Below, piece after piece: positions 9,971 through 64,000 of a stretch of 64,000 nt of DNA. The stretch covers positions 10,048,501-10,112,500 of the forward strand of contig OX485808.1 of NCBI GenBank assembly GCA_950295325.1. The letters are read 5' to 3'. Made by a program: the position numbers and the translations under genes. Source of the DNA: Polytrichum commune (Eukaryota > Streptophyta > Polytrichopsida > Polytrichales > Polytrichaceae). Numbering within the stretch: the stretch's first letter is position 1; the number at the start of each line of letters is the position of its first letter. Under the pieces are notes generated by a model. That model was not told where the DNA came from. It did no database searches and worked only from the letters and a program-made list of their open reading frames with translations.

Positions 9971-12900
9971 TCAGATGGACTTCTGTTTCTCGAGGACATT
10001 GAGACTGTCACAGTGTGTGCCAGGAGTGGATGATCCGATTGAGAGGGACAATGAGAGAGAACACGCCGGACTAGAAGCATCAGCGTTTGAGGAGAAATCT
10101 GCAGTGTGAGGAGTAATGACCATTGCTAACTCCTTACCACCTGTTTCGACGCCCCTGGTCATAAGTGGCAGAGTGGGCAACGCTGGAGGCGAAACGTCGC
10201 TGCTGTGGCGCCAATGTGGAGGTGACAGCCCAGGAGGGTATTTTGTCGGATCACGCAAGGGTGGTGTTCTTTGAGCTTGCAGCTCTCCAGGTGGTGGTTC
10301 GGCACGTATTCGAGTCGAAGCGGGAAAAGCATTGTGTTGCTGTACGCCAGGGCTCCCTGTATGACCAACTTTTGATGCAGAATTGTGATTTGCTCTGTGC
10401 GACGGATGACCCGTTCCTGGCAAGAGGACGGAATGGCTGCTACTACCAGGCACCTGAGTATCCAACTTCCCACCAGGTTGCTGTGGCGCCATGCATCCAA
10501 ACATTCCCGCCATAGTTGCAGCGACTTGAGACTCTGCAATGGACCTTGTTGAGCTGTTTGTTTGAATGCACGAGATTCCGGAAGGCAGTGATGAGTACCC
10601 AGACGTCCGTGCTGAGCCTGAGCCAGTAACATCGGCGCGGATAACCTCCAGAACTTTCGGGTTCATTGCAGCAAAATTGGGGTTGAACTGGGAGATGTTC
10701 ATCATACTTGGCCAAATGAATGTTCCCGGTGGGCGGCACACCTTGAAGCCAGTTGGTCGACTTCTCACAACGCCCTTAAAATCTTGAGAATAAGTGGAGC
10801 ACAGTGATCTCTTCTCCTCGTTCTCCGTAATAGCAGGTTCGTATCCACCAGAAACAGCAGTGGTCGGAGTCAGGTTCTTCTGTTCATTGCCTCCATGGGC
10901 TGTTTGACGAGAGGTATCATGCACCAGGTTATAGTTAGAAAGTGCTAGTGCAAGACCTTCAGTATAATTCGTTTGATTCTCTGCAGTATTACCACCAGTG
11001 CTGCTACTGGTGGCACTTTTCAGACCCGTACACTGCCTCAAATTAGGAGAGTCATGATTTTGAGATGCAAATTCATGACAGACAGGTGAAGTTCCAGGAG
11101 GGCGAAGTTCATATGATGTCAAATCTGTTATGCAGGTTTCTTCACCTTTGGAGACCACTAGTGGCATGAAGTTTCCGGTTGGATTGGACTCAAGTAGGTG
11201 CATGGTGGGCGTGGTCATAACGCTTAGCTCAGAAGGTGGCACAAAACCCAGGATCCTCATTATGCAGCTGACATCCGCCTGCACAATATAAACGAACGTT
11301 TTTCATATTATCAACGTATGGAAGAACAACTTGTAGAAAAGAACGCAACCAAACATACTAAGAAGCAAGCTTGATTACCCTCGCAGTTTAGTATATCGAC
11401 CAACACGCGCCACTTAATTGATCGGTTTTCCAATGATCGATACAACCTAAGCATGTTGCCTCTATTTACAAAAAGCAGTGAAGAAATTTAGCACCAAAAA
11501 AGCATTTTAAGCTACCTGCATCATAGTGACTGAATTCCGAACATCTTGTAATTGTCTCTCCAGGTCTTTGTTGCCGGATGAACTTTCTTGTTGCAATTTC
11601 CGGTCCTGAAATGATCACGAATCTCGGATAAGGAGAAAGAAATCTTAGATGAAATTTCTACAAGACATTTGATTGATTAAAGTCAATTTTGTATATTTCC
11701 CATCACGTAATAAACCATTAATTCAAGCCAGCTAGGCAGGGCACCATACCTCAGCCATTAGTTGCAATTCGTCCTCAAGCTTCTGAAAACGTTCCACAGT
11801 CGTGCTGAAATTGGAGCTGTGATGGAGACAACATTGTACTGTTACCATTTATAAATAAATCACGCCCAATCTGGGTGCTAAATAGAGTGTGCCACAAAAT
11901 CATTGCAGACACTTCCTAGCAGGTCATCTTCGCAATATAGATATGTGTCGGACTTACTAATTTCTTCTTCATCACCATATCTATCTCAGGGCTCAAAACA
12001 TACATATGTATGTCATATCTCTCCCAGCTGCTGTCTATGTGGTAGTTATTTGTCGTTAAGTCCAACGAAAGTGATTGCGATTATCCCATGTTGACAGACA
12101 ATGTATAGAGACAATAGAACACCAACTCCAGTACTTACCCTACTTTCTGGTCTTGATCAAATTGCTTCTGCATAGTGGTCAGTGCCGCCCTGAAATCAAC
12201 CATATCCTTTTGGATTCTCTGAAAAGAATGTCAACTATGGCCCACGTTACTGCCGCTCATTATAGGAACTATCGTGGGTTCACGTACCCAGAAGAGTAAT
12301 AACGTAAATGGTAGCACCAAGTTGAAGTAATTTTTATGGGGTCGAAGGCACTCAATCGCACCATATAGCAATAACGAGTGTGTGTCGATATAACTATTTG
12401 GTCGATGTGGCATCATCTCAAATGTCATTCACGATAGAGACCTCACCTCAATGACAACCTCATCTGTTTTTCTGAAAGGCACCAATGGGAGCCTTGTCAG
12501 CCGGTCCGCTTCAGTTGCCATTTCACTCGACTGGTCGGATCCTTTAAGTCTCACACAGAGAACCTTCATTTCACTGAACAACAGCGTGCTTGTTAAAATA
12601 TTGTAAAACAGCACCTCAAATGCAACTTGTCACTTTATAATACAGCCATGCCATAAGTAGGAAGAACATGAAATATTTGAAAGAAAGGATGCCCTAAATC
12701 ATTCTCTTCTTCCCCCCTATACTTCCTTGGAATTTCCGGGCAACCTATGTTCGTTTAATCTACGACTTCTTGCTTACATAGGATACCCCATGCAGCGATA
12801 GATGGTCTCACAACAATCAATCCAATAATTGCATGTTCGAGCATGCAAAACATCAAGAATATCGCAAGGGGGAACATACATATATTGTAGGAAGGATGAG

Positions 12901-14883
12901 TGTCACCAAACCTTTTAAGTTTATCTACCGTCTCCTTCAGGCTCTTCATCTCTGCGGCTTCAGAAGCAGTCATGCCTCGATTTATTTGCCAATGTCTGCC
13001 AGCTAGCCTGTCGCCAGGTTTCCAGCCGGGTGGGGGAATCCAAGATGGATCTTCAACTCCGGCTGCTTTCCGCAGCTCCATCAGACTTGGATGCTCAAGC
13101 CAATATTCCATAGCGCCTTCAGAATTATGTCGACGACGAAATCGCTCACCCGTACTCACGACCGTATCCGTCATGTGCTTTAAGAGGTGGTCTAGTAGTC
13201 CAGTATCACCGATGTGCTTCCTGGCTTCCTCGCGCAGAGCGGGCCTCAAGATAGGTCTTCCAGGTACAGCTTTACGCGCATGCATGATCTCGATAAGCTT
13301 CAGCTGCGCTGATTTATACCTGGATCCATACAAGTAAGAATGTGATTAGGTGAAATGCTGAATCGCCTTCTGCAAATCTTGGAAATGATAATACCGCGCT
13401 GAACGATTGTGACAATTCCAGAAATACGGTCCAATGAACAACGCGTTTGGTGTGTCAGTCATCACAAGTTAATGACGGAATAACATGATAGATTAAACTT
13501 GTATTCCAGGTCCCCACATGCCCAGGGAGATAGCTAGTACAAGATTATTTTCCCATTCCATGCATCACGGAAGATCGCGACGTGTTAGGTACTAAACAAG
13601 TGGAGGACCGACCAAAATGAGTTCTAAGTTCGTGCTTGAAAAGTCTCTGAAAGCCAGACAGTACATATCATCCTCATCCTCAAGGAACCGGTATAAGCAA
13701 ACGTCTACAAAGCGCTCTAAGAAAACATTTAGGATAAGAATGCCTGAAACTAGCACGATCGTGCAAAAAGTGGCGAACCTCTCACTAGACCAGCGGCCTT
13801 GCATGTCCTTAGGAAGTTTGAGAATGTTATGCTGCATGACTCCTGAACTCGACGACAGTTTGTTTAGTCTGTCTCGTTGCCCGTGATTGTTCCTCGATGG
13901 CGATTTGCGCCTGATTTCACCGGCCTCCACTGTTGATCTTAACTGCCTGTCTCGCTGCCGGTATAGCTCAGAAGGGACTGTGTTTGGCGACGTCTCCCAC
14001 TTGTTCTCTGTAAAGTTGTAAGGAACGTACGACGTTTCTTGAACATTTTGGTCAGCACTAGATACATGTACAGTTGTAATAACTCTCTCTGAATTAGCCT
14101 GGTGAAGTGCTATGCCACTGCTTAGGCCAAGATCGCAAGAATCGACGCTTCTCCTGCTGTCATAGGAGACCTTTTTTCTGAATCCCCAGCGAATAGGTGC
14201 ATCTTTAGCTTGTCCTGCAGCTTCTGGAGGTGAATAAGTTGCGGCAGACGTTATACCTGGAGACTCTTCTACGGTAACATTCTGGTTGTATGTCAACTTT
14301 GTCAAGAGCTCGGCCGCCGATCTCACTGTCACTAAGGCTCCGTCAGAAGTGTTGCCATCAAGGTCCTCTTCAGAAGTAAGACCACTTCTGTGGCGTTCCA
14401 GACCATTGGATGAGGTCGATGTGCTCTTCCACAGCGTGAGCTGCGTGGAATGATCCTTGAAATTATTGCAGAGATCTCGAGTGATTTTATCTCCCCTCAC
14501 GTCATTGCTTAACTGGTCAATTTTCCTCTTCTTTTCGAGAGGTAAGTCGTCATTATAAGCGTCCGAGTCTTGGTCTGATGACGCCACGGTCACGAGTTCG
14601 CAAAAGCCTTCTGCCGCGCATTGAGGAGTTTTTGGTGCGGACAGCCAAAGGCTCTTCCGATGTGGTTGAAGTGCATGTGCAGTATTGCATGAGACCGGCC
14701 GTGTAAGCGCCCGTTTCGCAGTTCTCGGACTCATTTCAAACTTGATACTCTCTTCGAGCTCCGAGTACTTCGCGCCTGAACCCTCGACGTCAGCCTCTAA
14801 CCTACCGTCAACGCTGCGCACCTCGAATGTTTGCGTCGAGTCTTCTCCAGTTCCATGACATGATCTCCTCCGGACAAGAACTT
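9971..14883 (-). CDS. DYAD: DYAD/SWITCH1/AMEIOTIC1-type meiosis protein
   Basis: Homologue of the plant nuclear protein that controls meiotic entry, sister-chromatid cohesion and early prophase. Exons, in transcript order: 14883-13779, 13319-12912, 12573-12447, 12218-12139, 11816-11750, 11605-11516, 11278-9971 (stop). All introns are GT-AG and keep one open frame. The family core spans the first junction and exon 2: GRWSSERYKSAQ, ARKHIGDTGLLDHLLKHM, FRRRHNSEGAMEYWLEHP, IPPPGWKPGD. RWGFRKK upstream also fits the family. Exons 2-6 continue as a charged, probably coiled-coil segment. The last exon encodes about 435 residues rich in Ser, Pro, Gly and Thr, longer than the tail I recall in Arabidopsis or maize. 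The first in-frame ATG in the large exon is 14734-14732, giving 1,011 residues. However, the frame stays open upstream to a likely acceptor at 14884 without an ATG, so a small 5' coding exon is probably missing. Identity is very secure; the start is not. Confidence 0.93.
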
Positions 14884-50220: not shown

Positions 50221-52508
50221 TTAGGTCTGATGCTCCTTTGCTACCCTCTCGAGCTCATAATGTTTCTTCATGACACGTGGCAAATACATTGGTAACAGGA
50301 AACAGAACAGATTGAACCACCAGAACACCATGTTCGCAACTGCAAGCCCACGCCCAAATAAAATCCAGTTCGACGCACCGATCAACGGAGTGCTCATCCC
50401 ATTTAAGCCCACGCTGTTAACGCCCTTGTTGAAATCACTCTTGAGCCAGGATGCGATTGAAAATAGCCTCCGAGTGTTGTAAAAAATTGGCACAAGCCCA
50501 CGCACAGGTAATGATGTGCCCTTCGTCTTTGCAGCGACGATTTCTGTGAGCACCTGGCAGGCCAAGAAAAACAAGTGGGGAGACGCAGATGAAAGAGCCC
50601 CACGATCACCCTGTACAAAACTGCCCAGAATGTAACCAAGGGGCAGTAAAAGACCGACAATGCCTCCCACTGCAACGTATGGTCCCAGGATCTTGCTCCC
50701 TTGGAAGATTTTGGGATGAATCTCCATGCTTGAAGAAGGAAACACCAGTTTGTTCATCAATACAAAGTAAATAGATGCAAAGACAGAAAATGCTATGTCT
50801 CCAGCGGGGATCAGCCCACTTGCAATGAGCACCAGGAGTAAAATTATCATCTGGAGCTGCATGATGGAGATGGGCATGCGAGGTTTTTGGATCCTTCCCT
50901 GCAAAATATGCGAAACATATACTATTAGATCTATAAATATTGAGGTTCAGACCAATGTTGGACCGGTATATAGGTGAATACATGGTGTCAATAATTAATA
51001 TCAATAATGGTATCAGAGAACATACTTGACTGGTATCAAAATTGTAACACCAGTCAAATATTGATATTAGGTGGGTATCTCAAGATGAAAGAATCTATAT
51101 ATAAATCCAAGTTATTATTTGGGTCAATACCATTCTAGACCATATTGATACTAGGAAGCTTTTGCCTAGGTGTAGAAGATTCTTAAATGGTATTGAAACG
51201 AAATATCCTCAAACATCCATACCCTATTGGTACCGAAAAATATAAAATCCTCAGTATAGATACCCGAATGATGTCAAAAAAAGACAAAGAGGTATCCAAC
51301 ACTGCTTCAGACAACACTTACAGATGAAGGTAACCAGTCAACCAAAAAGAGCCAAGAGACATAGCTGATCCAAAGCTTTCAGAGTTGCATATTAAATACA
51401 AATCAAATAAAAGTAAGCAATTAAAAACTAGAATGAAAAAGAAAACAAGTCACATATACGGCAATAGCCAAATGGTGGCAAGCCATTTGAGCAGGGGCCA
51501 TCCACAACAATTAATCTCCATGGAAGAAGCCATCTTCCATGACATCCAAACGGAGTTCATTGGTTTCTGGCAGTGGATACTTGTCTCGAGTTTTGGCTAC
51601 TGTATCTCCAGGGGTAATGGGAAGACTCAAGCAAATTGATGTATAGGATATGTTACTGAGACCTCATTGAATTCGAAATTTGAAGCAAGGAAACCAGGAG
51701 AGATAAGACAAAACTCTAGGAAAAGCAAAAGCCAGAAGTTTAGTTTATTGGAGAAAACACCTTTTATTTTCCTGAAGAGGCTTTGAAAAGCTCCCCTGTT
51801 AAGCAATCCTCCAAAGACTTGATAATTGTATGAAATTTCTAAATGCACCATAAAGACACATTTACTATTACACCATAGCCAACAAGATGTATGACATGGA
51901 TGCCTAGATGGCAACACTTTTTGGAGGTGAGCCTTTGGACCTAAGTTGAGAGTTGGGTCGAGCAAAAAGCTAGACCCAACTCTCAACACAAGTCCCGCAA
52001 ATATTAATCAAGATCCGTCTTCAATGATAATTAATCATAGTTTAATAAATTTTGGAGGCTCAAAAGTTGAGACGTTGCCTCCATGTTGGGACTTGCTAAC
52101 ATGAGTGGGACTTGGGACTTTGGGACTCGGGACCTCATGGGAACCGGCCCTAAGTATGGATGGGACTGACCTACTTGCTGGCCGCTTCCCATTCTCAAGC
52201 ATCTTCCATTTTCAAGGTTCTAAGTGTTGCGATGACTAAATGACTTTGGGAGTCGTTTCCCCTACTTGGGACCGGCACCTGCAAGTGGCGCTTCCTCCAT
52301 GTAGTTCACATGCTTAAATGATCCATCGACCAATAGTGTCCTCATTTTCAAAAATCCCCATCTCATATTGGGGCCCCTATCCGGCAAGCAGAATCATTTT
52401 CCTTCAGAGACAAATTCAGTAAAATCTGAGTACAGAAAACAAATGAGTAGGTACCTCTTTCTTGGGGTCTGAGAGTTTCTCATTGGCTGGGGCGACATTT
52501 GGCGCCAT
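50221..52508 (-). CDS. DUF7733-like plant multi-pass membrane protein
   Basis: Two coding exons: 52508-52455 (18 codons, starting MAPNVAPANEKL) and 50898-50221, joined at GAG|GGA through a 1.56-kb GT-AG intron; product 243 residues. Predicted membrane segments, by eye: about 33-49, 54-72, 91-114, 125-145 and 205-230. Family-like features are the opening helix ending ASGLIPAGDIAFSVFASIY, SPHLFFLACQVL, the motif FYNTRRLFSIASWL, and AVANMVFWWFNLFCFLLPMY near the end. I recall this as a plant-specific family with no assigned function. The intron contains a dispersed repeat (50945-51115) also seen at 29.0 kb. Family name is from memory, so moderately sure; gene structure is good. Confidence 0.78.
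50945..51115. repeat. Dispersed repeat family C in the membrane-protein intron
   Basis: Related to 29020-29185: both have GACCAATGTTGG or GTCAATGTTGG-like starts, ATAATGGTATCA, GGTATCAAAATT, TTAAATATTGATAT/TCAAATATTGATAT, GGTGGGAATCTCAAG/GGTGGGTATCTCAAG and GTGAAAGAGTCT/ATGAAAGAATCT. The phrase TGGTATCAGAG here resembles a retrotransposon primer-binding site, but no LTR pair was found. Confidence 0.55.
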
Positions 52509-56839: not shown

Positions 56840-59800
56840 ATGGCTTCGTATGTGCGTCCCAAGCGGATGCCGTCCAACGAGGACCGCATCTACAAGGCGC
56901 GCCAGTATGAGACAAAGTTGCAGGACTGCATAGCAAATGTGAAAGAGTACAACCAAAACATGCGAGCGGCGGAGTTTGCATCATCGTCAGCTAAGAATAT
57001 AGAGTTTCGCAACATAGAACAGAAGTTCGAGGACATAAGGTTGTGCAGGGAGCAGAAAATGGCGTGTAGGAGGGCGAGGTTGAAAGTGTTACTGGAGGAA
57101 GAGGAGAAACTCTTACAAGAAGAATTGAAGACTACAACAATGGGGTTAGCTGAGAGACGACAATGGCTCGAGGCAAGAGCTCGGGCTTTGAAACAGAAGC
57201 AAAATTTGGAGCAGTGCCAAAATGATCAGTATGTGGAGGAGCAATTGAATAGGGCTTGGAGGGATAATTCCGATGATGTCAGGGTTCAAGATTCGAAGAT
57301 GGCTGTGTTGCGGGCGGTTGAAGGTAGGAAACGACAACTAGAGGAAGCAGTAGCGAGAAAAATATTGGAGGAGGAGGAAGGTAGGAAGATGGATGCCATG
57401 ATGGAGAAGGAGTGGAAACTCAAAGAGCAAGCGTTGTTGAATGAGGTTCAAATGAAGGAGGCCAAGAGAATTGAGGCCATCGATATCTTGCATGAGCAAC
57501 TGGCCATGGTCGAATCATTGCGGCGTGAGGAGAAGGAAGCTGTCAAGGCAGAAATGGCAGCCATGAACAAAAGATGGCGGGAAGAAGAAGTTGAGCTCAA
57601 GAAACAACAAGAAGAGAAGAAATGCTACCAAGTATAGACCAAAACATGTTAACTTGAAATTTATTTATTTATACACAACAATTCCAAGCAGAAATACAAC
57701 AAACACACACACACACATACACAATCTATTCCATCAAATATAGTGGCAAATGAACCTTAGGCATTGATTTTTTCACCTTCTCCTTGAGCATTTTTCATGC
57801 GATTCTTGCCAAATATAATTATTGAAAGTAGAAAGGCCCATCCTTTTGCATCCCTAGCATATATTTGTAATTTTTCTACAAAAGTTTTGACCAAATCAGG
57901 TGATGCATGTGGACAAACTTCATGGTCCTATTTAATGGCAATTGTTTCAAATACAGAGTTAGTGATGCAATGCAAAACCATCTGCCCATAATTATGACTT
58001 ACTATGTAGCCTTCAATTCCTTCACCTTCTTTTTGGACGGAAATAAGTTATCATATGATTCTTGCCAAAATTGATTACATTAAAGTTGAGATGCGAGTGT
58101 TTTTGCAACCTTAGAATATGTTTTTACCATTTTGTTTTTTACAAAGTCTTGACCAAACCGAACAATACATGAGAAAACTTTTCAAGTAGAGATTTAATGT
58201 TGTGATGCAAATGCATAACCGTCGGCATATGATAATGTCTTCATCGGTCACCTTTGCAATTGATGGTGTACAGCTTGCAAGAGCAAAGGCAATAAACGAA
58301 CAAAACAAGAACTCACGATGTCAGAAGAACCAAGAATATGAGCGGGACAAGCAATTTGAGGCGGATTGCATGGCTATGACAGCGGCAAGGGAGGCCGCGG
58401 AAACATTACAAGAAAAGGAACTAAAGGATGCTCAAAAGAGAGAGGCTAGACAATATGCTGATCATTTGAAAGCAGTGATGGGGCGACTTAATGCAGATGA
58501 GTCGGCTCGCAATGCGCAATACAAAGCTGAGGAGGATGCTGAGTGGGCAAAGAGGGAGGCCGGGTGGAAACGAGAGGAAGATCTACGAAAGCGTCTCTGG
58601 AATCGTGTTCATGAGGAACGGCAACAACAACTAATGGAGAAAGGTATGTTTGACCTCCAATCGATGATAAAATCTTCTTCGAAATTCCATACTTCATGTT
58701 TTTGAAATCCTAGAAGCAATCCCTAAACTTGTCCTAATGCCAAGGAGTTTTCCTTATAATATGGGAGTTGCCATCCTAGGTATACGGTATCTCAAAACAA
58801 TAGTTATTCTCACTCAGATTTGTGAATCGCAAAATTTATCCTTGTTGATGTTACTTGAAACTCTACAAGCTTAATTTTTGACACACCCTTAAGGCAATTC
58901 AAACACAAACAATCTTAGGATCTTCATCCCTAAACCTAATAAACTCTGATTTTCATTTTCATGGATGTGAACACCGATGTTTGATCCATTAGAAAGACTT
59001 CGACATAATATTGAAAGCCAAAAAAAGAGTGAGATGGAGTACAACGAGAAGATGGCTCAAATGGCAGAGGCTGACAAGAACAGACAACTCGCAGAACACA
59101 GGAAGGTAAGAGATGACGATCACTTGATCCAACTTTTTGGGTTCATGCCATTCTCATTTTGTCAAAAATTGGTAAACCATCAAAGTGCCTACGTGTTTAA
59201 GGTAGGGTTTTCCCTTTGACTCAATGAATTCTTGTTGCCAAGGGTTGATCCCTTGTGATTTCTTATCAATTGTATTGCACACAATATTCACAATTTCTTT
59301 CCACTTATGGTGCATGCTCATAGTGTTTGAAAATGAATGACAAAAAACCTATTTTCTGAGGTTCTTTGAGAGCCAAACTTGTTTTAGCACATCCCGGCAT
59401 GCCGAAATAAGTTTGAGCATCAATCAACCAATGTAGTTGTTCAAACCTCCAATTTACCTCAAGCATGGACCGTAAATGTACCAAACATCGAAGGCATTGT
59501 ATGCAAAACAACCAACTCTTGACCAAAAGTCATGTTGAGTTAGAGAATAACTACCTAGAATACACAAGTGTGAACCATATGTGAGGAGGTGGCACTTTTA
59601 GGCCGACATTGCATGTCAAAACAATGTTTGACAATATTTGTTTGTATGGATGGATTGTCATGCAGTCAAAACATGGTTTACTGGATGAGCTTGAGGAGCA
59701 AATCAGGAATAAGCAAGCTGCTACCATTACTGCCAAGGAGCAAAAGCGTGTTGAATTTGAAGGTATGAGAAATTCCCCTCCATAGATAGCTAATTCTACT

Positions 59801-60228
59801 CTTCACGATACAATCAAGAGGGAAAATGTGCTTAGTGGTTTAAAACGATACTCCCTCTGTTTCAAAATAAAATTGTGGTTTCTATTTCAGTGCGGGATTA
59901 AGAACAGTGACCGGATTTGAACCACAATGCGCTTTTTAACCAAAATTGGGAGCTGCCGAAAAGTTGCCGACGTCTCTGTCATGCCCGGAGGAGGTCCGTA
60001 ACGAAACCATGGTTTTATTCTGGCACGGAGTTTATGCAGAAACCATGGTTTTATTGTGAAACAGAGGGAGTATGATTTTATGAACAAAAAGCTTATAATT
60101 ATATTTGATTTGCAGGGATTGTGGATCAAGAAAAGAAGTATGCGGAGAAAGTGAAGTGCGCATCTGCTGTGCTGCCATTCCCTGAGCCCAACTTCAAGCA
60201 CAAGCTCGTGAAGTGGTACGAAGATTAG
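56840..60228 (+). CDS. CFAP53: CFAP53-like cilium and flagellum protein
   Basis: Five exons: 56840-57631, 58274-58643, 58993-59105, 59666-59762, 60116-60228. All introns are GT-AG and the frame is continuous: 494 residues, close to the roughly 500 of animal CFAP53. The protein is almost wholly charged coiled coil (trichohyalin/plectin-homology type). RRARLKVLLEEEEKLLQEEL and the following RARALKQKQ and VEEQLNRAWRD match the order of the conserved CFAP53 core. KHGLLDELEEQI and VDQEKKYAEKV match its C-terminal region. It ends FKHKLVKWYED. In animals and algae CFAP53 is an inner-lumen protein of ciliary doublet microtubules needed for motility, so here it should act in sperm flagella. Exon 1 ends CAA|GTATAG; exon 3 begins after CCATTAG. 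Exon edges are by eye, and homology is judged from pattern. Confidence 0.85.
57700..57722. repeat. (CA)n microsatellite in CFAP53 intron 1
   Basis: Run of CA units with one CATACA interruption, just inside the first intron of the CFAP53-like gene. Confidence 0.8.
57757..58260. repeat. Tandem duplication inside CFAP53 intron 1
   Basis: Two diverged copies of about 250 bp: both start TTCACCTTC(T/C)..., then GATTCTTGCCAAA, ATTAAAGTT/ATTGAAAGTA, TTTTGCA, CTACAAAAGTTTTGACCAAA/TTACAAAGTCTTGACCAAAC, AATGCAAAACC/AATGCATAACC. The second copy abuts the acceptor of exon 2. Confidence 0.65.
59851..60070. mobile_element. Stowaway-type MITE in the last CFAP53 intron
   Basis: The 220-bp element begins CTCCCTCTGTTTCAAAATAA and ends with the inverted form GTGAAACAGAGGGAG. 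It is flanked by TA on both sides (59849-59850 and 60071-60072). CTCCCTC ends plus a TA target duplication define Stowaway (Tc1/mariner-derived) elements. The inverted pairing continues inward (AAATTGTGGTTTC with GAAACCATGGTTT). It has no coding capacity and its right end lies 43 bp before the exon 5 acceptor. Confidence 0.88.
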
Positions 60229-61258: not shown

Positions 61259-61718
61259 TCAATTTTGATGAACTTTTGGCTTCGGCTTTTGAAGTTTGGG
61301 GAGAGCTACAATAAGGACTCCATCCTGCATTGGCGCTATATATCACTGCCTCCATATCGGTGTTCTCAGGGAGTTGGAATCGATGCAAGAAGTTGCCATG
61401 TGCCCGCTCCACACGATGCCATGTATCACCCTTCTAGACTTCTTTCTTCCTCTCCCCTCTAATCTCTAGCAACCTTCCTTCCAGCAATTGCACTTTGACC
61501 TCCAATTTCTTCAGTCCCGGAAGGTCGGCCTTGAAATTAATGTGTGCTTTAGGAGTTTCACGCCGATCAATTTGTGTGTTGGCGACGGAGTGAGCTCCAT
61601 GTGCGAAACGTTGTGATGGCGAACTCCCTAGTCGTTCTTCAAGTGGTTCCCACACAATTGCAAATGCCCAGAGTTTGATCACGTTGTTGCCACAACCGCC
61701 AAACAACGCCATGGACAT
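61259..61718 (-). pseudogene. Class I small heat-shock protein (HSP20) pseudogene
   Basis: Starts MSMALFGGCGNN, with VWEPLEERLGSSPSQ, then the alpha-crystallin domain: ETPKAH, FKADLPGLKK, EGRLLEIRGERKK. A TAG interrupts at 61436-61434. The same frame then continues with WHRVERAHGNF and FQLPENTDMEAV. A one-base frame change near 61322-61330 moves the homology to another frame, DGVLIVALPKLQK, ending at TGA 61261-61259. Overall length and order match cytosolic class I HSP17-18 chaperones, which are usually intronless, as here. One stop and one frameshift suggest fairly recent loss. A sequencing error could explain one of the two lesions, but hardly both. Confidence 0.85.
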
Positions 61719-64000
61719 GTTTGCAAACTTCCTCTGTCAATGAAGTCATGACTACTGCCGCGCGCGCTTAGAAATCAATCGATACTTTCACCTACTCGAA
61801 ATTACTTACAATGCGCAACAAACTGTCCCCTACGTGATCTCGACACCTTGGACATTGGATGAGAGCTCTTCAAGAAAGAAACATATAGCGCCGACAACAG
61901 ATGGTTGATGAACAATGGGAAAACTCAATACTGATCAAACTGTCGATGGAAAACGAGAAACAAACTACATGATGAAACATAACCGCGGAAACCTACAACT
62001 ATCTCGACAACCAAACACTTGGAAAAAGAAAGCTCTTCCAGATTGAAATGAGGAGGTGATTGGCAGGGCAGATGGATGGTGAACAAAGGAATTGAAGTGG
62101 AGATGGCCGAAACCGGTGTGGAAATTTCTGTCAACCAATACAACGTACTCTATTGTATCAACAATGAACATGAAATATGTACTCGGATTGCTAATCTTCC
62201 TCATAGCACTTGACACCTGGCACGCCCTACTACCTATGGTCCATCCAATTATAGTGGGATATCTTGGTGAACTGGGTATTTTTGATTAACCATGTGGAAA
62301 TCTAGGGGCTTGTTCTCGGGGGAGATGGGTGTAGGCCGGCTTGAGAGGAAGCAATAGTCTTTGGGAGCCTTTTAATTCTTGTGATGTCCATTTTAGGATT
62401 ACATATAAACTATACCAACTCAAAATCAAGCTACACCATAGTTCACAGAGGTGGTAGCATCATAGTCTTGTTTCTTATATATTCTTTTATTTCTTCTTCA
62501 AATTAACCCACTTCTTGTAGAATGTGAACACGAGATCAAAGGAAATCATTAACATATCCAAACCAAGGCCGTGACCAATTTACTCATAATTCGCATAGCA
62601 CATTTTAATTATTTATCTTAATAATGAAGTTCTATGATTCAAACTTAAGTTAGCTCATGGAGCAATGCATCTTCTTGAGCCAAGAGCAGCTCATGGTGTG
62701 ACTATAGAGGAAATCTACTTGATCTCTTGGCTCAATACTCTTAACAACAAGATGATTGAAAGTTGCCTTGCGACCACATTGTCGGATGGGAGGACAACAA
62801 CCAAGAATAATGTCCTCCCAAATGTCCCTCTCTCGAAGCTCTTCACTGCCTAGCCACACAAAACTGAAATACTCGAGACGATTTCGAAACGATTTCAGAG
62901 AAATCTACTTCAAGTGCACAACTACAAATGCATCTGATATGCATGTTCTTTGGAAGATCAGAGACAAGTGTACAAGTGTTGGGCATTTGATATGGTTTTC
63001 TATAGCTTGTAGGTTGCATGTAGTTTGTTAGTAGAAAGGTTAGCTCATGTTTCTATATTCTTTTGTCTAGCTTTCCCTAGTCCCCTTTCTCATGAGGAAT
63101 CACCTTAGTGCTCCAAACTTTCAAGAAGTTTGACCACTATTTGATTGGAGCAAGTAAGTGACAAAGTGAATCAATTTTGCAGTCAACTCAAAAATGATAT
63201 GTCAAGCCTCACCAATATAGCCAAACTAGACTCAAGAATAATGCCTCTTGATTGTGGTCCCTTCATAAGATTGCTCAGAGGGCCTTCCTTGTCCCGAGGG
63301 GCTAGTAGATCCCGGCGAGTTAATCGAGAATAATGTTATGGGATGTTGGGAGCTCAATCTGAATCTAAGTCATCTTGCATTATTGATTAGAATTAGAAAG
63401 AGAACAAAGAAATGATTCTAAGTAATGTTATACATTATAATAACAAGATTGCGAATGAATATTCATTTCTACGAGATCTATTGATTTCACCCTTGGAAAT
63501 TAAACCTCCTCTAAACATGACAACACATGGTGACAACATTTAGATGCCCATTTAGGAATCCATATTTGAATGCGGAAGAGTTAATTCATTGACTTGTGAG
63601 GAAGAAGTTCAACAGAGATGTGAGTGGATGCATGCTTTGGAAGAAAGGATTTGCATGGAGCTCAGTAGTGCCATCATACCACGAAGAAGTAAGATTTCCA
63701 ATTTTGTTTTTCAACAAGACAATGACCACGGCAAGAGAAGAATGGATGATGAGCTATAGTAACAACGAGACATCCACCTACTCAAGCCTATTCATGGACA
63801 CAAACCATAATTTATGGATGAAATAGTAGCACATGATTAGAGCTATTGAAAGTCTTTTTCATTGGGTGCAAGCACAATATAGTGGACAACTCTTGATTCT
63901 TGCACACGTTTAAGTGAAAGTGATTCAAAACAATATACTGACTTTAAAATTGTGAAAAGAAAAGATCGTAAACATTTAAAAAACATATTGATCTACAAAG
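61719..64000. other. No supported gene
   Basis: Open frames are short (62-91 codons) and unlike any known family. The first few hundred bases would have been the promoter of the small heat-shock gene, but I found no clear GAAnnTTC array. No repeats stand out. Confidence 0.4.

Follow-up and report, generated by a model that had tools for sequence, protein, structure and literature searches.

An intact CFAP53 gene in a moss genome with apparently no outer-arm dynein heavy chains

The window, by which we mean the whole 64,000-nt stretch of moss DNA analyzed here, carries a five-exon gene on the + strand that runs from an ATG at 56840 to the end of its stop codon at 60228. Its coding sequence of 1485 bases has a sole, terminal stop and specifies a product of 494 residues, and all four introns are GT-AG. 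The features of this gene, which we call CFAP53, are as follows.

56840-57631, + strand: exon 1, with start codon and residues 1-264, donor GT after; AlphaFold model all-helical
56888-57124, + strand: ELLEn-like stretch, residues 17-95, matching the published pattern (PMC10973386) only after two relaxations
58274-58643, + strand: exon 2, AG before and GT after
58993-59105, + strand: exon 3, AG before and GT after
59666-59762, + strand: exon 4, AG before and GT after
60116-60228, + strand: exon 5 with stop codon, AG before
60154-60228, + strand: C-terminal tail, residues 471-494 and stop, past the part aligning with Chlamydomonas FAP53

An earlier reading of the sequence alone had described a full-length, splice-consistent gene at this position, and that description held: the coordinates were base-exact, the product had 494 residues, and the C-terminus that it quoted was reproduced. 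We searched the whole genome (407.8 Mb in 64 contigs, with C1, C2, C3, C6, and C7 measuring 77.9, 70.3, 59.2, 44.7, and 42.1 Mb, respectively) with the product. Five matches at E ≤ 0.001 corresponded to the five exons at C6:10105340-10108725, and among the nine candidates scored, no second place reached that threshold. Transcription of the gene is predicted from sequence alone, which leaves some room for a silent or decaying copy of a flagellar gene. The five exons are nevertheless intact, with canonical splice sites, no in-frame stop, and no other copy found, and we regard such decay or silencing as extremely improbable. Judged by its sequence, this is an intact, ordinary ciliary gene of a plant with swimming sperm, in which its presence is expected.

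Elsewhere in the window, ARAGORN and Rfam searches of the 64,000 nt returned nothing. An exon-like stretch at 12758-13345 (- strand) may resemble plant meiotic proteins of the DYAD/AMEIOTIC1 type, and Pfam gave no match to it. An open frame of 241 aa at 50224-50946 (- strand) carries a DUF7733 domain (238 bits, cut-off 27). The stretch at 61437-61736 (- strand), 1.2 kb downstream of CFAP53, matches the first part of an HSP20-like domain (profile positions 6-40 of 102) at 19.9 bits, just below the cut-off of 20.8; it ends at a stop and is possibly a truncated small heat-shock gene.

To define the identity of the product, we compared it with Pfam and the PDB. Pfam placed it in one family, TPH (PF13868), with a score of 49.7 bits (cut-off 27, E 2.6e-13). 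When all PDB sequences were searched up to E = 10, four distinct sequences matched, the best being Chlamydomonas FAP53 (E 1.3e-16, residues 11-470 to 7-462) and the other three following at E 9.9e-05, 1.9e-04, and 2.2e-03. Three of the four are named FAP53 or CFAP53, and one is named only trichohyalin-plectin-homology domain-containing protein. The best matches were checked for an unrelated coiled-coil family, and Chlamydomonas FAP53 headed them instead. Because E, A, K, and R are frequent in the product, a shuffle control was added. Local alignment with FAP53 residues 7-462 scored 393, with 118 identities over 445 aligned residues, against a mean of 148 (s.d. 13, maximum 203) for 200 shuffled FAP53 sequences. 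Chlamydomonas FAP53 (PDB 6u42, 8glv) is, like the moss protein, a TPH-domain helical protein of similar length (482 vs 494 residues) and collinear with it over the span given above, but identity is only modest (26.5%) and the moss tail past residue 470 is unaligned.

The same genome encodes a second TPH protein against which this assignment could be set. A TPH profile search, with five candidates scored, gave three matches, one in CFAP53 and two in a gene at about C1:7.361-7.368 Mb. The joined pieces of the latter yielded ten distinct PDB matches at E ≤ 0.01, every one named CFAP45 or FAP45 (best 4.8e-36). With 100 shuffles for each comparison, moss CFAP53 reached Z 15.7 against FAP53 and 2.1 against FAP45, and CFAP45 from this genome reached 0.4 against FAP53 and 30.7 against FAP45. 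CFAP45 is a further microtubule inner protein of the TPH family in this genome, but it belongs to a separate orthologue group, with both cross scores near the shuffle level. Neither of the companion filaments, MNS1/FAP127 and CFAP141, was identified in the genome, which for MNS1 does not argue that it is missing. A CFAP45 identity for the product of 56840-60228 was rejected, as its PDB matches contained no CFAP45 chain and its Z against FAP45 was low.

The initial naming of the gene as CFAP53 is therefore borne out by the TPH domain, the PDB matches, and the difference in Z. On these comparisons, made with FAP53 and FAP45 chains, the product is an orthologue of CFAP53/FAP53, in a group distinct from CFAP45. 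Trichoplein (TCHP) presumably has a TPH domain, as does the product, and the ELLEn module is common to TCHP and CFAP53; no TCHP or MNS1 chain was among the results. That it is a relative of TCHP or of some other TPH protein, and not a CFAP53 orthologue, is nonetheless very unlikely given its collinearity with FAP53 almost from end to end and PDB matches that are CFAP53, not CFAP45, chains.

We then examined the parts of the protein that might bear on its attachment. The N-terminal ELLEn module of FAP53 is described in PMC10973386 as contacting FAP67/NME7 and tubulin. The strict published pattern is absent from moss CFAP53, and residues 17-95 match if W->F and one LIV->M are allowed, a relaxation chosen after seeing the sequence. 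None of 20000 shuffles matched the relaxed pattern, and Chlamydomonas FAP53 (residues 7-462) itself fails the strict and relaxed forms alike. A single-sequence AlphaFold model of exon 1 (mean pLDDT 82.3, pTM 0.29) places helices at residues 13-47, 53-98, 103-142, and 151-263; an all-helical prediction is as expected for a helical filament. Foldseek gave no match to this model up to E = 10, a null result that is uninformative because extended helices are hard for the method.

At the other end of the protein, the last 40 residues had no PDB match up to E = 10, a weak test with so short a query, and residues 463-482 of Chlamydomonas FAP53 fell outside the sequence compared. A plant-specific C-terminus, as the earlier reading had suggested, is a candidate feature. 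For bovine CFAP53, PMC8595878 describes R158 and Q495, a residue close to the C-terminus, as a possible contact between neighboring molecules. By analogy, the unaligned tail of the moss protein may belong to such a joint between neighboring CFAP53 molecules, although this is a guess.

We also asked what kind of organism the gene belongs to; the earlier reading had assigned it to a land plant. A LEAFY C-terminal profile search of the genome gave six matches in three loci. These loci lie at C1:40.57, C1:62.30, and C7:8.64 Mb (L041, L042, and L043). Two loci carry MRDYVHCY and GAWCQACY, and one carries MRHYVHCY and GAWRQACY, where we take D312/C345 to be type II and H312/R345 to be type I. LEAFY is described as a streptophyte gene whose types are defined by sites 312, 345, and 387 (PMC6588583). 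According to the same source, both types occur in mosses outside Bryopsida (Tetraphis, Andreaea, Sphagnum, Takakia, and Polytrichum commune), Bryopsida have type II, and a type II copy is also found in one liverwort, Plagiochila. Two type II genes and one type I gene thus fit a moss outside Bryopsida as the most likely source, with a liverwort possible, and the land-plant assignment stands, the LEAFY genes marking a streptophyte that is most likely a moss.

Next, we surveyed the genome for further axonemal genes. A dynein AAA1 profile search gave 37 matches in nine places, comprising eight loci and one isolated fragment; with 40 candidates scored, the heavy-chain count is a lower bound of at least 8 loci. 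Five of the loci were compared with the PDB, the outer-arm reference being the best chain named outer arm or DNAH5/9/17. Among the best 60 of 84 in each case, L032 scored 533 bits with the Chlamydomonas I1 beta chain against 336 for the best outer-arm chain, L031 scored 632 (8glv_Cn; next named DNAH10) against 412, and L026 scored 589 (8glv_Fm; next DNAH6) against 404. L029 scored 596 bits (DHC2) against 399, and L028 scored 526 (8glv_JG; next named DNAH7) against 342. We take DNAH1, 2, 3, 6, 7, 10, and 12 to be inner-arm chains and DNAH5, 9, and 17 to be outer-arm chains. All five heavy chains compared, of the eight loci, were therefore nearer to inner-arm than to outer-arm chains. L025, L027, and L030 are 74, 70, and 89% identical to L028, respectively, over joined pieces. 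No outer-arm heavy chain was found in this AAA1 search, which scored the best candidates only and in which five of eight loci were typed.

By eye, none of the eight loci resembled an IFT dynein, and the five compared with the PDB were axonemal. The isolated AAA1 fragment (L033, C2:18741735-18742010, C2:18.74 Mb) contains an internal stop, has no neighboring matches, and is probably a dead copy.

The doublet partner of CFAP53, NME7/FAP67, also has a gene in this genome. Seven NDK profile matches fell at five places, and for the one at C2:9.756 Mb, the eight best PDB matches were long NME7-type chains at 123-151 bits, against 91 for the next match; five of the eight carry the name FAP67 or NDK7, and the other three are called only nucleoside diphosphate kinase. 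An NDK match at C7:33.99 Mb, followed by a DPY-30-like stretch, resembles NME5/RSP23, as judged by eye only. A stretch of 11 kb on C2 holds five DM10 matches whose profile ranges suggest three DM10 domains, as in RIB72; p28 is represented by one locus (five matches); and eight PACRG-type matches lie at C1:29.97-29.98, C1:30.12, and C2:45.72 Mb. The inference originally drawn from CFAP53, that the host builds motile flagella, gains from this set (the dynein heavy chains, NME7, CFAP45, p28, PACRG, and RIB72-like), which supports motile flagella, presumably those of sperm, in the life cycle of this moss.

The lack of outer-arm chains in our search is in keeping with what has been described for another moss. 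Physcomitrella patens is reported to be without outer arms but to keep inner arms, in a preprint citing Hyams and Campbell 1985 (PMC12637542), and to be without outer dynein homologues (PMC3936282); the heavy chains found here agree with this reported absence. Chlamydomonas differs in having outer dynein arms. Animal CFAP53, as described in bovine and mouse studies, shares its family, by name, and its published doublet position with the moss protein, but it is also tied to the outer arms, and its part in attaching this motor is what CFAP53 is best known for. In bovine cilia, Pierce1 and Pierce2 attach to CFAP53, reach across the microtubule wall, and anchor the outer-arm docking complex (PMC8595878), and mice with mutant Cfap53 lose the outer arms of node cilia but largely keep those of tracheal cilia (PMC7817014). 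We did not find this link in the moss, where the controls were silent too. A genome search with the docking-complex family (ODAD1) gave no matches, and a Pierce search gave one sub-threshold match. The docking-complex profile also gave sub-cut-off signal in 6 of 14 prokaryote control genomes. Since NYD-SP28 and RIB43A, coiled-coil/ciliary families intended as positive controls, likewise had no matches in the genome, the docking-complex and Pierce negatives carry little weight. The Pierce candidate (L005) showed nothing recognizable by eye and, at 20.8 bits against a cut-off of 27, was rejected.

FAP53 is described as a filamentous inner protein that spans the outer junction and is thought to help position the B-tubule (PMC10973386). 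Taking these data together, we are confident, short of certainty, that moss CFAP53 is an orthologue and, in sperm flagella, acts as a filamentous microtubule inner protein, with the NME7-anchored role at the outer junction kept and the outer-arm link probably gone. The protein would be made in developing spermatids and would run as an extended helical strand within the A-tubule, close to its seam and to the outer junction. Its N-terminal part would be held to NME7/FAP67 and tubulin, and from within the A-tubule, it would help to place and hold the B-tubule. Because inner-arm but no outer-arm heavy chains were found, the connection that would lead from the lumen to the docking complex of the outer arms has probably been lost, with selection presumably keeping the structural role; the NME7-anchored junction role would then explain why CFAP53 is retained.

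A different site of action has some precedent, as CFAP53 in mouse node cilia is found chiefly at the base and assists the entry of TTC25 and dyneins into the cilium (PMC7817014). In moss spermatids, CFAP53 could similarly have its main work at the basal bodies, the blepharoplast, or the spline, or in the import of axonemal parts, and not along the axoneme. We consider this unlikely, as in Chlamydomonas and mammals CFAP53 forms part of the doublet over the whole length of the axoneme, and NME7, its partner there, has a gene in this genome. Returning to the outer-junction role, a further proposal is that CFAP53 was kept in a plant lineage that lost outer arms, its selected function there being outer-junction architecture (perhaps also inner-arm or basal-body support) and not outer-arm docking, with the Pierce/docking surfaces relaxed or re-used in mosses. 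We judge the case for and against this to be evenly balanced. The unaligned tail is a candidate for such a re-used surface. If the proposal is true, moss sperm would separate two CFAP53 functions that are mixed in animal mutants.

Previous work on plants offers little on this protein. Loss of many flagellar structural genes is reported for Gnetum, conifers, and angiosperms (PMC9023351), and the available part of that account does not name CFAP53 among those genes; nor is it mentioned in the available parts of PMC5406480, PMC8128824, PMC2239267, and PMC11151096. Literature searches on CFAP53/FAP53 or microtubule inner proteins with plants, in which subscription journals are thinly covered, showed no study of plant CFAP53 among the papers listed, and those on FAP53 with land plants or microtubule inner proteins with Marchantia returned none. 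Animals without CFAP53 are described as losing or weakening outer arms, at least in some cilia, and other work of CFAP53 is hard to see there for that reason. A moss that has both CFAP53 and NME7 while apparently lacking outer arms would offer a clean test of the lumen role, and this apparent separation of CFAP53 from outer dynein arms is the point worth keeping.

Finally, we note the positions of some flagellar genes. The distance between CFAP53 and an inner-arm dynein heavy-chain gene at C6:10028219-10030592 (- strand), which is 17.9 kb to the left of the window, is 74.7 kb. On C2, the RIB72-like locus and a PACRG-type locus are 63.5 kb apart (C2:45.65-45.73 Mb). For two pairs within 85 kb among 16 axonemal loci, P(2 or more) is 0.001 with genes uniform and 0.016 with gene space taken as one quarter of the genome; the limit on distance was chosen once the pairs were known, and three extra PACRG, NDK, or DHC matches were omitted or merged. 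Clustering of flagellar genes in this genome is possible.
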